Positions 9,001 through 57,164 of a DNA stretch of 64,000 nt are shown here, piece after piece. The stretch is from assembly GCA_030141605.1 (NCBI GenBank), contig JAQGDQ010000054.1:372001-436000 (forward strand). Direction: 5' to 3'. Position numbers and translations under genes: made by a program. This DNA comes from Tubiluchus corallicola (lineage: Eukaryota; Priapulida; Priapulimorpha; Priapulimorphida; Tubiluchidae). The notes beneath the pieces were generated by a model. That model had not been told where the DNA came from. It was given only the letters and a program-made list of their open reading frames with translations, and did not search any database. Position 1 is the first letter of the stretch. Each line of letters begins with the position of its first letter.

Positions 9001-11381
9001 ACAGATCAATGGTCATGTAAACACAAACACAGTATTACATACATGTATCTAAGCTACTATAAAAAGTAATTTCTGGTACAAATATAAATGTTTTATGGCC
9101 TACTGCTAAACCATATAGACATCCGCAGTGAAACTAATGACCAGATGAGGCATCAAACAAAGAAACGATGATGATAATGATCCCATCTAATTAAGTCATG
9201 TCAACAATCTAATTACGTCATGTCAAGTGCCCAAATGCTGCTGAGTACTATTGATAAATTTCTGCAAGCACAAAGTCAAACAGATGAACTAAGATGGACG
9301 TAATATTGACTACAGGGCAGGTAGCAGCTACTGAACTTACTACTGTGTAAACCCATTGGACAAGGACTGACTTTTGTGAATCTAGTGCTTTAACGTGTCG
9401 GTACTAAAATCCCTGCTGTTTTGGCAAACACTGGCTTCTCGTACCTCCGCATTGACGTGCACATATTCCTGTTGAAACACCAAAGCGCACCTGCCGAGTT
9501 TGCCATGGGCAGCTTTGTTATTGGCACGTGCCGTAGTAACGCAATCGATATTATTGGCAATTTTATAATTGGATAAGCATGCACAAAAATAAACTTCGCC
9601 AGTTTTGATTTAAATCCATCGAAACGAAAGTTTTGAAATAGCAAAGTTCTGCTACTGCTAATTATGGCCATAAAGATGTTACAATAGTATGCACTAATAA
9701 ATGAAGTTTATTATTTATTTATTAAGAATCTAAGTTAAAGTCTTACGTTAATAATTTAACCTTTAACAACATTAGATTCATTGAAATTTATTACAAAAGC
9801 TAATATAGTGTCACTTTTATGTGGTACTCCAAACCTAGAGCATACACCCGAGGGTTAAATAGTTCCATAAAGGTTAAACCAATAAGCGTATTAAACTATA
9901 AATAATTAAAGTCTGTCAAAGCGTGAATACTCTGCTGGGAGTTGAATCTTCTAAATGCCCGTCGTTTCATCAAAATCTGTAGTACACGTATGTAGATCTA
10001 ACACAATGATCAGCAAAAAACTGTGTGCCACTAATGGTGTCAGATTGGAAAGCCACATTTAAGCTGGAATACGCGAAGCTGTACTTTTTTATTATAAATT
10101 TATAAACGTGCTGTAAGCGCGAAAGTAAGAACCGGTAATAACAAACTTACTTCTTCAGGTAATATGCACAAAGCTATCCCATTATTTCACGCTAAGCTTA
10201 CAGGTACGCGGGAGGGGAGGCATAATCATTTTGAAGAAGACTTCAGGGCGAGACCATAGCGAATCATAAACAAAATTAATAATCAGTATGTAGCAATGAC
10301 AAATGAATAAATGACAATAAAATTATTGTTACACAATGATCTAACGAATACTAGGATTAGCGAACAACGAAACTCGAGCAAAAAATATTAGCCTTCGTAT
10401 AAAAACCAGATGATAAGAACAACAAAAAAATTGGTCACTATAGTCGCCAGGTATTCGCACTAACCCGGCTGTACCGAAAAAATTAGGCTTACAAAATTTT
10501 TACACATAGGAAATGTCCTGGTAACTGTAACCATTAGCAAACCTAGCGAACAAAAGCTAAATTTATGCTGCTTACTATAAGCTATCGGCCTTGGGCGTTT
10601 CGTTGCCAAGTTCAGTAACAGCCTAGCCGGAAGCTTTCTTACAGCAATTTAATGCTAGCACAGATCTCGATCATATAAACAAAACGAAAATTTTCCAAGA
10701 GATGTAAATTCGTGATACACACATTACAGTCTCACATGCAGCCAGTCACACATGCACCCGTATTGCAGCAGCATTTTCAACAAGAAATTACACATAGTAA
10801 CGTTCGTTTGGACATGTAGTCATAAACTTATACAGAAGTAAAAAAACACGTTGTGAAAACACTTCAACAGGTTACTTAACACTTTATAATCATGATCACA
10901 GTTTTTCATAGTTCTCGCTCTATTTCATCTTTCATTCATTATCCCCCCTCCCCCACATCTATGTATATATTATCATTATCTCAATTATTAATCCTTCCTT
11001 TAAGATTTCCACGTACAGTTTGGCCTGTCAAGCTATGCTTGCTTTTAGGCTCAAAGTGTATGTATCAAAATTATTCTGTAATGTAATTTGCACGTGTATA
11101 CGATGCGAAAGACTCTTTTTTGTAATTTCTGGACTATATACTGCATTTGTATTTATGTTTACTTTAGTAGATAATTATCTGTATTTTAATGATAACTGTA
11201 AGATGCAGTGTGGAAATAAATAAAACTTATGAACTTATTCACCAATGCTGATCTCTGAAGATGCTTATTATCGTTACTCATTAAATATTTTTGTAAGTAT
11301 TAGGCCTATTAAGGATTAATTTTATTTCTTACAGAGGTTTCTCTCGGTCACAATTATAATTTATGGAAACTGTCTACTTAC
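1..11381. other. Gene-poor region, no gene recognised
   Basis: I find no convincing coding exon on either strand. The open frames here are short, lack splice context and resemble no family I recognise. Visible contents are simple or repetitive: an A-rich stretch at about 7310-7450 that resembles one at about 13490-13810, a CT-rich tract at about 8222-8275, and near 3745-3780 a short stretch (around ATGTCTTAGCCACGTTCGG) resembling parts of the repeat found at 20.5 and 24.7 kb. Because the receptor exon at 11.4-11.8 kb is read leftward and ends in a splice donor, at least part of this region should be its intron. Missed small exons cannot be excluded by eye. Confidence 0.5.
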
Positions 11382-11792
11382 ATAAGTAATCATTGGAATG
11401 TTCCAAGCTGTTGCAACATAAGCTTCAGCATAACACCTATCTTCTGGTCCAATGATAGCTGTCACACCTGGCATTGTAGTTTCACAAGGACCTTTTCCCG
11501 AAGAGCATTCACCAAAATACAAGTCTGTCATTTGTGCAACGCTCTTGATGCTTTCTCCGGCTTCTAGTTTACTGAAGGTCCAATTTAGTGTATGTTCACC
11601 TCCAGCAATAGGATAATTTCGATTCACATCGTCCACTGCCAACACAACGGCACCAGCCATCATTTTGGCTTCTTTGGCAAAGTTTCCTACGAATCCTATC
11701 TTGAATTCGTAGCCATTGCATTTAATACATACGCACAAAATTAACAAAAATATTGATCTACATTTTAGACAAGCCACTTTAGAAAAGTCCAT
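11382..11792 (-). CDS. ANF-receptor / receptor guanylate cyclase-like protein, first coding exon (partial)
   Basis: The exon encodes 137 residues from an ATG at 11792 (A at -3, G at +4) to a GT donor (GTAAGT) immediately left of 11382, ending in phase 0. Residues 1-27 look like a signal peptide with a Leu/Ile/Cys-rich core (residues 14-24). Residues 28-137 match the start of the ANF_receptor ligand-binding fold (periplasmic-binding-protein type I): a beta strand with IGFVGN, a helix with MMAGAVVLAVDDVN, then VTAIIGPEDRC at 110-120 and WNIPMITY at 130-137, the arrangement of natriuretic-peptide receptor and receptor guanylate cyclase ectodomains. There is an N-glycosylation sequon, NWT, at 70-72. 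By family knowledge this would be a plasma-membrane receptor, possibly cGMP-producing, but no membrane, kinase-homology or cyclase exon is visible, so another receptor of the same fold (GABA-B-like or orphan) is possible. Confidence 0.8.
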
Positions 11793-12114
11793 TGTTACTA
11801 AAATACTGCTAATTTTCGCTTGTCCTACTTCAAGTAATCATTTTATTTGTTGCAGTGCATTTATTTTTACTGAACATTGTATTAATGTCCCAATTACACT
11901 GCCTATAAACTACTGCAACACTTATTTAAATCATCTTGAACTTTCACCGCTGGACGTTCCGGGTAACCCAGCGCACAGGCAAGATTTTGTAAACAAGACC
12001 ATGCGAGGGCGAGGCCATCTTGGTTTTCGGTGCTAGCGATACTAACAGACAAAACTAAGTTTCAACGTACAAGATCCTCGATTGCAAGTTATTAGAGCTC
12101 CACGCAGGTATCGA

Positions 12115-28200: not shown

Positions 28201-31200
28201 AATTAAAGGCAAACAACTGCATTTTTGTTATATATTGTTAACAAGGTACTGCACATGACGGGCTTCCAAAAATAGCTTATCGAATAGCAAATCCAAAGCA
28301 CTACACAAGCAGTTGCACAAAATCGGGAACTCTGATATCTTAATCAATACTTCGCAAACATTTCATATAATTTTGTACTTGCTATGCTATATTCATTAAC
28401 TGGTGTTAGAAGAAACCACTCAGGCACATTAAAAGTATCTAACAGGTTGCAACATGACAGAGAATAAACAACAACAACACAACCTAAACCTGAGACCTAC
28501 AGCACCCTGAGGAAACTACATGACAGCCATTCACCCTGGTACAGCTGTTTTTGAAAGAGAATCTATACAAAGCCCAGTTGATTCTCTTTTAAAAAAGTTT
28601 CAGAACTGCTTCTGCACAAAGTGCCACATAAATGGTTATTTGTAAAACAAAATTTTGAAAATGTCTGTTGGGTTATTTTGTTATATTTTGTTTCGCATTT
28701 CCTGTTTCCTATTTAATATAAAGATAATCCATTCACAGACATTTGATATGTCAAAAGTAAAGAGCTGGGGAAACCATTTGCTCCAATAATTCAAAATTCT
28801 TTTCATTTTAGAGCTCCAGAAAAAAAAGAAAAGCACTGTTTTAAAGTATTGAATGTCTTCCTTACCAAGGTTGAACATTACCAAGATTTAAGGCTTGCCA
28901 TAAATAACATATTTTACTGCCCAGATTTTATCAGTTGCAGCAATCAAATGCTCAATAAGTATGAGGAAGTTTATTTGCAAATGTACAAATGTAATGGCAA
29001 CATGACAAATGCACAGCAAGGCAGGCTAAAACTTCTTCCCAAGTTTTTAAGGTCACTTTAAGAGCAAAATACCGCATTAATGTCTAACCTGTGCTAGTTT
29101 TGAAAACACCTTTCAATCTGTTACTTAGCTTTGACACGGCTGCCAACGTTTCGCTTGTCTTTTTTGAAACTCTACAACACAAAATAATTGAAAATTATCA
29201 AATAGGACCATACGAAAAACTGAGAAGCAAAGACACAAAAAACCAACTTGTGTTAACGAAGACAAATATGGTATTAATGGTAGCTGAATTTTACTAACAA
29301 ATTGACTGCTATAAATGCTCTAGTATCACACACTTTATCTTGTATATATCACAGTTTATATATGCATGACTAAAACTGCAAGTAATTAAAAAATACTGCT
29401 GATATGCTTAATAATATTTTAAAGTTAAAATAATGCAAAATATCACCACCACCACCATGCCATCACCAATAAAATTAAACAGGAGGCTATAGTTCACAAT
29501 GCTAATAACTACTGTTAATATTTCTCTGTCTACACAAACAGCAGAGTAATAATAATTGGTAAATGCACGACAATAAATGTATTCCACGTCAGTTAAAGTG
29601 AGATATAAGATGGTGTGAAGAAGATGATTGCTAGATTATTGTTTTAGTTGAATTATGTGACTGATAAAGAGTGTGGTGCGAATATTAAGACAAACGTGTC
29701 AAAAATTAATTAATGATGATATTTTATAAGAGCAAATGTCAGAATAGAGAGAAACTAAAGACGGACACATCACCCCAAGCATGCTTTGTACCTGTTACTA
29801 TCTGAATACTTCGACAGTGAAGAGCTTTAAAACAAAATAGAAAAAAATTTGATAATTTGTTGTCTATACTTGTTTGTACTACATTAAGATAATGTCATTG
29901 TATTGTAGTGATGGGAATCAATGCAAAAATTGCAAGACAATTTCGACAAACGATAAGAACTTGTGATACGATTTCGATTTTAATAAGACCTTTACAAAAA
30001 CTGTGGTATGATTTCGATAAACGATAAGGATTTGCGATAGGATTTCGATAAACGATAAGGACTAGCGATACGATTCAGATTTTGATAAGCATTTTATACA
30101 ATTTGATACAATTTTAACTTCTAAAATACATGTTGTCTTTAAACTAGTTTATATATTTAAATGGTGACCTTACGAGTGTGTACATCAAAGGTTTGCACTC
30201 ATGAAAGTATTGTGGATTTTTGTGCATGAAAATGTGGTACATTTCAGTTACTAAACATTAGTTTTGGTACTCCAAACTGTCAATGGAGTCAAACCACAGT
30301 TTTCTCCTTTTACAATAAAAAGAAATGCAAATTGTAAAGTTACATATATTCAAGACTATTTTTAACATGGAGTTTTTTTACCACACACAGAGAACCCACA
30401 TTTTGTTGCAAATGAAAAAATTGGCAAGCATAAGTTGGCACACATTATTACGCAGATTAATGAGAGAGAGAGACTGTTGCTTTAATTATTATAAAAAAGC
30501 CCGGAATCAACAAGAGATCTGAGAAGAATAAACTAACAATTTAGTTATATGCAAGGTATTTATTTAGTTTAGATGCAAGGTAATCTGACAAATTACTACT
30601 TGTATTATATTTTCCACATGAGCAGAAAGCAAGATTTAAAAATACACATAAACTGACACAACTGTCACGAAATATTGGACGAGCTAGCTGGAACAGTACT
30701 AGCAGATTACTCAGAGTGACTGTCTTCCTGACTACGTTTAAAGTTAGTTTCGAAAATTGGAAAGTACCCTTTTCCAATTTTTCAATAAAATAACAAAACC
30801 AGCTCAGGAAAACAGTCGCTCTGATGGCACTATTGTAACAGGTACAGCCAAAATTTTCTTGGCAAGTTTTGATAATGAGTGCATTAAAAATTCTGTGTTC
30901 GTCCAGAATGTTAACACATCTGTGTCGCTTGCACCTAGAACCAGATGTTTACGTCTTTTTCCACTGTATGCCTGTGCTCTTTAGAAGAATTTGCATTCAT
31001 TTCTGATTCTGAGTCATCTATCAACAATTTCTTTCACTTTGGCATATCTGAAAATTAAAAAGAAAACATAAATTTAGAATAACTTTTGTGAAAATAGGTT
31101 TTCTTATTTGACCTGAATTATAATATTACAAGATTGAAAATTACAGCGAGACATGTACTTTCACTATGAACAGAGACACCACAGTTTCGTTTCATCATGC

Positions 31201-53240: not shown

Positions 53241-53299
53241 GTAAAATTACTGATTTTAAGTAATAAAATATGAGTGACTTAATTGTAGCACATTTCTAC

Positions 53300-53437
53300 T
53301 TTGATGGAATTTCTTCTGATAAACAATGTAATTTAAAATAATCATTCAAATTAGTCTAGGTTCAAATCTTTGATGGAGTTTCTTCTGATAAACGATGTAA
53401 TTTAAATTAATCATTCAAATAAGTCTAGGTTCAAATC
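53300..53437. repeat. 69-bp unit duplicated in tandem, with B-box-like core
   Basis: Two adjacent copies (53300-53368 and 53369-53437) differ at about five positions. Each ends in AGTCTAGGTTCAAATC, which contains a pol III B-box-like GGTTCAAATC. It could derive from a SINE or tRNA-like head that was duplicated. No cloverleaf is evident. Confidence 0.85.
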
Positions 53438-54012: not shown

Positions 54013-54020
54013 AATTCAGT
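54013..54020. repeat. Left target-site duplication of hAT element
   Basis: AATTCAGT, identical to the 8-mer at 57157-57164 on the far side of the element. Confidence 0.92.
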
Positions 54021-54030
54021 CAGGGTTGGC

Positions 54031-54117
54031 AATCCCGTTGAATCCCGTTTCCCGGGATCCCGGCACATTTGGCCAATCCCGGGAGTACAATTATAATCCC
54101 GGGATCCCGCGGGATTA
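54031..54117. repeat. Left subterminal CCCG array of hAT element
   Basis: Several AATCCCG and CCCGGGATCCCG motifs on both strands within 100 bp of the left end. Subterminal repeats of this type are transposase-binding sites in characterised hAT elements; binding here is inferred. Confidence 0.65.
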
Positions 54118-54434
54118 ATTAAAAAATAATACTTATTATGTAGATACAATCCGCATGTTCTCACTCCGCTGCATGTGCGTGTATTGGCATGTCGATCGCC
54201 TAGGCAACTAACTAGGCATAGGCAGTACAGTACAGCAGCTCAGCTACACGGGTAATTCAGTTCAGATATAGCATTGTCATTGTTTTAGTAGCCGGCGAGT
54301 GAGTGAGACGCATAGGAAGGAATATTGACATTTGAAATTTGTAGTATTGTGTGGACTGTGTGCGACGTTGCCTTATACTGCCTGATTCTGATTGTGCATC
54401 TTGTTCTGTGATTGGTGTCTCTGTTCTGAGTTTT

Positions 54435-56471
54435 ATGATGGCCAGTTCTGACAATAGTTCTGCTGTAGTTGAGAATGAAAAATCGAGCGTTTCTTCAAAA
54501 GGTGGTAGTGGTACTGATACCGGACAGAAGGTACAATCGAAAATTTCGATGCCTACAGGTTGTACTAGTAAAATATGGAACTACTTCGCCGTTGATCCCA
54601 ATGACACAAAAAAAGCAAAGTGTCAACTATGTAAGTCGGTAATAAAGAGAGACGGAGGCTCTACATCCGGTATGAAGCGACACCTTAAGGCAATGCACAA
54701 GTCTATATCATTGGAAAAGGATGGGGAGGATGGAGAAGGTATATCAAAACCAAAGAAGGCAAGAATCCAACTCCAACAGCGCATAGATAAGTTTACTGCT
54801 CCAGATAATAAAGCTGAAAATTGCATGCCTGTACTGATATGTAAATTAGCGGCCGTTGACCGAATATCTCTAAATACTATCGCAAAGAGTGAATTTATAA
54901 GAGATGGTTTCGAAAGGAGAGGTTTCAATCTACCTAAAAGCCACAACACTCTGCGAAAAATAATTGTTGGTCACAGTGAAGAGTTGAAAGACGAATTGCG
55001 GGAGAAATTCAAAGAAATAAGGCGAAGTGATGACGTGAGCTTTGGGATAACGTTGGACGAATGGACATCTAACCAAAATCGGCGTTATGTCAATGTTAAT
55101 TTACATACATATAATGAATACTGGAATCTTGGCCTGGCTCGAGCGAAGGGCAGTATCACTGCTGTTAAAACTGTCGAAATAGTAAAGATGAAGCTCAAAC
55201 GTTATGGTATTGAATTGGATGATGATGCATGCCATGTTATATGTGCGACTACGGACGGCGCATCTGTCATGCTCAGTTTCGGACGTAAGATCGCCAGTGA
55301 ACATATGGCGTGCTACGCCCATGGTATACATTTAGCGGTACAGGATGTTATATATAGTGGTATGGAAGAGGAAGATGAAGATGAAGAGGATGATGATGAT
55401 GATGATTTAGAAGATGGAGAAGAAGTTATCGATGATGAGGATGACGATGATGATGATAATGAAGTTAATGAGGATGAAGAAGCCTTGCCAGTGCGCCCAA
55501 TGAACCCTATTATCAAAGATACAGTGAAAAAAGTGCGTAAAATAGTGGTGAAAATTCGCAGAAGTCCGTTAAAAAATGACAAACTCCAAGATTATAATAT
55601 GGATGCTCATGGAAAAACTCTATCTCTGATACGAGACAATAAGACCCGGTGGAACTCATGTGTTGACATGGTGGAACGGTTCTTGAAAGTAAAGCCACAA
55701 GTTGAGAAAACTATGGTTGATTTCCCAAAGATGAAACAAAATTTCATCACTGATGAGGTTAATATGTTGGAAGATTTAGTAGCAGCACTGACCCCGGTGC
55801 GAATCGCTGTAAAAAAGCTACAGGACAGGAGTATGACTTTATTGGCCGCTGATACCGTCTTCTGCTTCATGTTGAAAACTCTAGGAGAAAAAGATACAGT
55901 TCTCTGCAAGAACATGAAAATGGCTATAGAGAAAAGGTTCTTCGAGAGACGTCCTGCCAAGCTACTAGATATGTACAAGTACTTGCATAACCCGGATTCT
56001 CCAAAATCTGCTCCGATATTCCCTCAAATGAAAATGGCAAACAAGAAGGATATTAAACAGTCTATCATTGCACTTTACGACAAACTTCACCCTGCGCCTG
56101 TCATTGAGGAAGCTCGGATCATTCCAGATCCAGATGATAATGATGAAGCAGTTGTAGTCAACAATCCACCACCACCCGTTTCAATGGCCGAAGCTTTAAA
56201 TAAGGAAATAGAATCAATGATGTCTTCAGGAGCGGTTGCAGCAGTAGAGAAAAAAGGGGACTTCAACTTAGATTTCAAGGTTTGGGAGACAACATCTGTC
56301 AGGCCAAAACGACTGGAAATAATATACCGCAATCTAGCAGCTATACAGTGCACTAGCTGCGAAGCGGAACGTGCGTTTTCCGCGTGCGCTTTATTCAACA
56401 CGAAACTTCGTGCACGCATGGGAGATGGGCTTCTGGACGCACTCACTTTTCTGAAAGCATATTATACTTAA
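54435..56471 (+). CDS. hAT transposase with BED zinc finger
   Basis: 678 residues from the first ATG (54435; a second ATG follows immediately, with better context). The frame is open further upstream to a GTG at 54351, but no ATG lies there. BED finger: W48, C63-x2-C66-x16-H83-x4-H88. RNase-H-like catalytic core: D208 in TLDEWTS, D274 in TTDGAS, then CYAHGIHLAVQD, and after the insertion domain E645 in CEAERAFS, within a hATC dimerisation region ending ALTFLKAYY near the C terminus. These Asp/Asp/Glu are the expected catalytic set by analogy with Hermes. Residues 311-349 form an almost continuous Asp/Glu tract just after the second Asp, where hAT proteins carry an insertion domain. By analogy it would excise and reintegrate the element in the nucleus; a domesticated ZBED gene is excluded by the flanking inverted repeats and target duplication. 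Confidence 0.95.
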   Translation: MMASSDNSSAVVENEKSSVSSKGGSGTDTGQKVQSKISMPTGCTSKIWNYFAVDPNDTKKAKCQLCKSVIKRDGGSTSGMKRHLKAMHKSISLEKDGEDGEGISKPKKARIQLQQRIDKFTAPDNKAENCMPVLICKLAAVDRISLNTIAKSEFIRDGFERRGFNLPKSHNTLRKIIVGHSEELKDELREKFKEIRRSDDVSFGITLDEWTSNQNRRYVNVNLHTYNEYWNLGLARAKGSITAVKTVEIVKMKLKRYGIELDDDACHVICATTDGASVMLSFGRKIASEHMACYAHGIHLAVQDVIYSGMEEEDEDEEDDDDDDLEDGEEVIDDEDDDDDDNEVNEDEEALPVRPMNPIIKDTVKKVRKIVVKIRRSPLKNDKLQDYNMDAHGKTLSLIRDNKTRWNSCVDMVERFLKVKPQVEKTMVDFPKMKQNFITDEVNMLEDLVAALTPVRIAVKKLQDRSMTLLAADTVFCFMLKTLGEKDTVLCKNMKMAIEKRFFERRPAKLLDMYKYLHNPDSPKSAPIFPQMKMANKKDIKQSIIALYDKLHPAPVIEEARIIPDPDDNDEAVVVNNPPPPVSMAEALNKEIESMMSSGAVAAVEKKGDFNLDFKVWETTSVRPKRLEIIYRNLAAIQCTSCEAERAFSACALFNTKLRARMGDGLLDALTFLKAYYT

Positions 56472-57050
56472 ATATGTTGGCTTTATGCAATACTTTCTTG
56501 GAGTTGGAGTACGGAGTACGGACAAGGGGTACTGTACTGCTACTGACTGACTGGATTTGAAATTTGAGCTTACATCTAAAAGATAACTTTTGGTTGTTTG
56601 AGTAGTTTGTCTTGTCAAAGTTTGTCTCTCCTTTTTCTGTGCTCTTCTTGCTGACTGATGGATGATTATTATTATGCTAATCTCAATTTAAAATCACAAT
56701 GGCATGTCTGTATTTTCTCATGCCATCGTGCTATAGTATCGCATCGCATCGCAATCGCACATCATATCGATATCAATGTAATTAATTATGTTCTATTCTA
56801 GTTTAGAAAGAATATTACATGCGTTTGTATTAGTAATTAATTATGTATATACTCGGGTCCACGCCAGAATTATATTGTAAGTGATTAGCTTCTAAACACT
56901 AAACTCGTTATGTCAGTACATACTCTACATATTTAGAACTCAGTCAACTACTATAAACATGGCGTGGCCCCGAGTATAGTGTTTTTGTTTATTTTTTGTT
57001 GGTATTTATGGTCTGTCAAAGTTCATCATTAGCTCAAACATCACTGTTTT

Positions 57051-57143
57051 CCCTCAATCCCGTCCAGTCCCGTTTCCCGTCCCGTTTCCCGGGATTGCGC
57101 CAATCCCGTTCCCGTTTCCCGGTCAAGCGATCCCGGGTCGGGA
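57051..57143. repeat. Right subterminal CCCG array of hAT element
   Basis: At least five AATCCCG/GTCCCG/CGTTTCCCG motifs, inverted relative to some on the left side, ending next to the right terminal repeat. Confidence 0.65.
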
Positions 57144-57156
57144 AATGCCAACCCTA

Positions 57157-57164
57157 AATTCAGT
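57157..57164. repeat. Right target-site duplication of hAT element
   Basis: AATTCAGT, an exact copy of 54013-54020. Confidence 0.92.

Follow-up and report, generated by a model that had tools for sequence, protein, structure and literature searches.

A young five-copy hAT transposon family in the genome of the priapulid Tubiluchus corallicola

For the hAT transposon Hermes of Musca domestica, the BED fingers of the transposase are known to contact subterminal repeats at the left end of the element, and the spacing of these repeats is critical: cleavage suffers severely when they are moved 1 bp further away from the tip (PMC10368747). An Ac-type target preference, i.e., nTnnnnAn, is also given for Hermes (PMC10368747), and the target consensus of the Buster group is nnnTAnnn (PMC3499496). 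Judging from its sequence features, an element in the stretch of T. corallicola DNA analysed here (64,000 nucleotides; referred to as the window) belongs to the same superfamily. The element proper spans positions 54021–57156 (3,136 bp; 54013–57164 when both target-site duplications are included), and its features are listed in Table 1. We read it as an autonomous-type hAT DNA transposon that was recently inserted and forms part of a five-copy family (probability about 0.93).

Table 1. Features of the hAT element, in window positions.
Feature	Position	Strand	Basis or remark
Left target-site duplication AATTCAGT	54013–54020		Identical to 57157–57164
Left terminal inverted repeat CAGGGTTGGCA	54021–54031	+	10/11 bases equal to right end
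Left subterminal TCCCG/CGGGA array, 11 sites in first 130 bp	54033–54114		Site count and shuffles
Junction of private 6-bp loss (one repeat unit) in left array	54042/54043		Unit present in the four sister copies
Junction of private 22-bp deletion, 5′ untranslated region	54158/54159		Versus C1809 and C1219 copies
Transposase reading frame, 678 aa, single exon	54435–56471	+	Open from ATG 54435 to stop
BED zinc finger (CxxC...HxxxxH)	54567–54701	+	Pfam zf-BED, E 2.4e-12
D208, catalytic, in ITLDEWT	55056–55058	+	Opposite D of DMWT in divergent hAT of same genome
D274, catalytic, in TTDGAS; CxxH motif next	55254–55256	+	Alignment with divergent hAT
Acidic D/E-rich tract between CxxH and TRWNS	55362–55484	+	Window copy lacks 6 bp (2 aa)
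hAT C-terminal dimerisation region, with E645 (56367–56369)	56283–56456	+	Pfam Dimer_Tnp_hAT, E 2.5e-5
Right subterminal TCCCG/CGGGA array, 11 sites	57058–57143		Site count and shuffles
Right terminal inverted repeat TAGGGTTGGCA	57146–57156	-	10/11 bases equal to left end
Right target-site duplication AATTCAGT	57157–57164		Identical to 54013–54020

The first-pass annotation had proposed a young hAT transposon, a reading to be given up should the element turn out to be single-copy. Searching the genome (343.5 Mb in 2,344 contigs) recovered five copies on five contigs with 98–100% identity, i.e., C516 (the window copy; 3,136 bp), C1809 (3,170 bp), C2239 (3,134 bp), C2151 (3,133 bp), and C1219 (2,829 bp), located at unrelated sites and differing by two to four private substitutions each, which bears out the proposal. 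All five copies carry the 8-bp target-site duplications typical of hAT elements, each perfect and each different (AATTCAGT, GATGGGAG, AGACACAC, ATCATGGA, and TTTATAAG), and the one in the window is perfect as originally annotated. Given the base composition of the window, a chance match of this kind would occur at approximately 3e-5 per site, or approximately 4e-23 for all five copies. The annotated 11-bp terminal inverted repeats are also present, in line with the short repeats (10–25 bp) of hAT elements of 2.5–5 kb, but they are not perfect: the outermost tip base differs, being C on the left and T on the right in all five copies.

Such very high identity between copies could in principle stem from segmental duplication or from assembly duplicates (haplotigs) of one locus that mimic a family. 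This is refuted, to the point of retaining practically no probability, by the similarity stopping exactly at the element tips, with unrelated flanks and differing duplications, and by the window flank being single-copy. Moreover, the C1809 copy sits inside an old transposase gene whose domains are HTH_Tnp_Tc5 and DDE_1. When the sequences on either side of this copy are spliced together with the duplication kept only once, the DDE_1 reading becomes continuous again (...DNARAHPNEEQLVSEDGRIRCMFLAPNVTSLIH...), and this provides independent confirmation of the duplication as well as of the element's limits. Because this old gene contains stops, it had probably decayed before the insertion took place. 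The search for the C1809 empty site returned only the copy's own flanks, so that no paralogous empty site was found in the assembly, and for the C2239 flank it returned repetitive neighbours, none of which convincingly spanned the junction. The flank of the C1219 copy contains telomere-like interspersed repeats (TAACCC/TAACAC-type).

The window copy encodes the uninterrupted BED-type transposase that had been annotated, with an N-terminal BED zinc finger (PF02892, 47.1 bits) and a C-terminal hAT dimerisation region (PF05699, 24.4 bits vs. a cut-off of 21.4), both of which are expected of a hAT transposase. NCBIfam gave no relevant match for the protein, and a DUF659 match around D208 and D274 was weak and below cut-off (E 0.12). 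Among solved structures, the Hermes transposase was the best relative, matching in the C terminus only (phmmer E 1.6e-5). When aligned to a divergent hAT transposase on contig C539 of the same genome (approximately 21% identity in the last 300 residues), the protein appears to contain the complete D-D-E triad together with the CxxH and RW motifs: D274 lies within a stretch opposite TDEGSN, CYAH opposite CADH, TRWNS opposite TRWNS, and E645 opposite the E of SERVFS. The numbering of D208, D274, and E645 in the first-pass annotation proved exact when counted from the start codon. For the RNase H fold that accompanies these motifs in hAT transposases, a single-sequence structure model was uninformative (mean pLDDT of 38).

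BED and hATC domains in one open frame are also a feature of ZBED genes, and would fit a domesticated, ZBED-like host gene instead of a transposon. However, this reading, which we regard as exceedingly improbable, is refuted by the presence of five near-identical copies that all have their own tips and duplications. The coding differences among the copies are, moreover, mostly replacements or frameshifts, so that function has not visibly been preserved since insertion.

Both ends of the element are densely packed with TCCCG or its complement, with 11 sites per 130-bp end vs. a single one in the 2,876-bp middle. These counts are far higher than in shuffled ends, which contained on average 0.17 (left; maximum of 4) or 0.41 (right; maximum of 5) sites. 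By analogy with Hermes, the arrays are likely targets of the BED finger. Transposition would then involve binding of the TCCCG-rich subterminal arrays by the BED finger of the transposase, cutting at the YAGSGTTGGCA tips, and joining of the ends to the target with an 8-bp stagger. Separately, a 27-nt inverted repeat (56848–56874 and 56952–56978; 85% complementary, with 77 nt in between) lies in the 3′ untranslated sequence; a large deletion has removed most of this repeat from the C1219 copy.

Pairs of copies differ by 5–15 substitutions (0.16–0.54%). In gap-free columns, private substitutions amount to three in C516 and C1809, two in C2239 and C2151, and four in C1219, with a mean of 2.8 (approximately 0.09%). 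Under assumed rather than measured rates between 2e-9 and 1e-8 per site per year, the copies would be about 0.1–0.5 million years old, and assembly errors, if any, would lower this age further. The transposase frame is intact in three of the five copies (678, 680, and 680 aa) and shifted in the other two, by a 1-bp deletion in C2151 and by an 8-bp deletion in C1219, which additionally suffered a large 3′ deletion. At least two lineages of copies can be distinguished, since C2239 and C2151 have in common a replacement of 5′ sequence and five substitutions, four of which lie within or next to the replaced part, and the same altered tip base (CAGCGTTGGCA) is found in both C1809 and C1219. In the former pair, approximately 50 bp of 5′ sequence (cf. 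54132–54159 of the window) has been swapped for a short, unrelated A-rich filler, which might resemble the outcome of faulty gap repair after excision. The family is thus young and has recently been mobile, and on its sequence its autonomy is plausible.

The window copy itself had been annotated as apparently intact. This holds for its reading frame, catalytic residues, and tips, yet the copy is not pristine, as it carries three private indels, i.e., the loss of 6 bp from the left array (at element position 22/23), of 22 bp from the 5′ untranslated region, and of 6 bp from the acidic tract. The stretch affected by the 22-bp deletion has been replaced differently in C2239 and C2151. Two private amino acid replacements, M to I (55019) and T to I (55747), are present as well.

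The suggestion that this copy could be mobile is consequently upheld only in part: the young family and the intact frame agree with it, whereas the private change in the left array does not, and the search for an empty-site allele in the assembly found only the copy's own two flanks. We give the window copy at best an even chance of still being able to move, and perhaps appreciably less. This doubt stems mainly from the 6-bp loss in the left array, and draws on what is described for Hermes. It is nearly an even bet, if slightly below one, that the family is young but that the window copy is now immobile, with a crippled left end or transposase. The position of the lost unit, when set beside the effect of a 1-bp repeat shift in Hermes (PMC10368747), would fit such immobility, as would the two private replacements and the loss of two amino acids; on the other hand, the lost unit is one of a redundant array and may have been lost before insertion, and the acidic tract is simple sequence in which a change in length is likely tolerated.

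Regarding the further claim that the remaining elements of the window are all deleted or decayed, a light check agreed as far as it went, the one other hAT trace seen being a remnant of an older element whose dimerisation domain contains a stop codon (30768–30929, minus strand). Outside of the hAT sequences, the window contains an open stretch with a match to the ANF_receptor ligand-binding domain (11364–11837, minus strand; E 3.7e-7), which probably represents one exon of a gene for a receptor, and a 69-bp unit in two tandem copies (53299–53437; 94% alike), situated approximately 600 bp to the left of the element.

When the genome was searched with the protein, with 310 bp of the left end, with 297 bp of the right end, and with tip patterns, the five copies alone were recovered, besides weak pattern matches near control level, although weak matches may be missed by these searches. 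Neither MITEs nor decayed relatives were found in the genome. Approximately 110 further DNA matches in the genome all fell in the GAT/GAA-rich acidic tract and were discarded as simple sequence. No relatives were found in viral contigs or prokaryote genomes, and a literature search for the exact tip sequence gave unrelated papers only. A mitochondrial COX1 gene was likewise looked for in the assembly, and none was present. Elsewhere in the genome, more than 100 other hAT dimerisation-domain traces occur; those on C2237, C2278, C539, C1143, C390, and C2290 lie within open frames of 647–891 aa and may represent further intact hAT families or domesticated genes.

The sudden appearance of the family, with no older relatives recovered, suggests a recent arrival, perhaps by horizontal transfer. 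A very recent horizontal arrival, with five insertions so far and the invasion at its start, before miniature non-autonomous derivatives have formed, is a tentative scenario to which we assign somewhat less than even odds. Alternatively, the family may have persisted vertically in very few copies before a small burst. Its low copy number, the near identity of the copies, their intact transposase genes, and the failure to recover older relatives make the family a candidate both for present activity and for recent horizontal arrival. Moreover, the natural differences among the five copies, especially those in the left subterminal repeats, provide a ready comparison of end requirements.

Set against described systems, this is a new five-copy family within the already well-known hAT superfamily, and otherwise an ordinary one. 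It resembles Hermes in its length (approximately 3 kb), imperfect terminal repeats, subterminal repeats, and 8-bp duplications, as well as in a transposase that combines a BED finger and an hATC dimerisation region with an apparent D-D-E catalytic core and that matches Hermes in its C-terminal sequence. Unlike Hermes, however, the family has different tips, TCCCG as its subterminal motif, and an acidic tract before TRWNS, and sequence similarity is detectable in the C-terminal region only. With only five target sites, the nTnnnnAn preference is not clearly seen (T at position 2 in two, A at position 7 in three, and both in one). With the Buster group (TcBuster, SPIN), the family shares 8-bp duplications and a BED-hAT transposase, but none of its sites, which number only five, has TA at positions 4–5. 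Finally, the size range of 2.5–5 kb, the short terminal repeats, and the 8-bp duplications are shared with the Tip group (BuT2, Tip100; PMC3942097), although the transposase gene consists of one exon in this family vs. five in BuT2 (PMC3942097).
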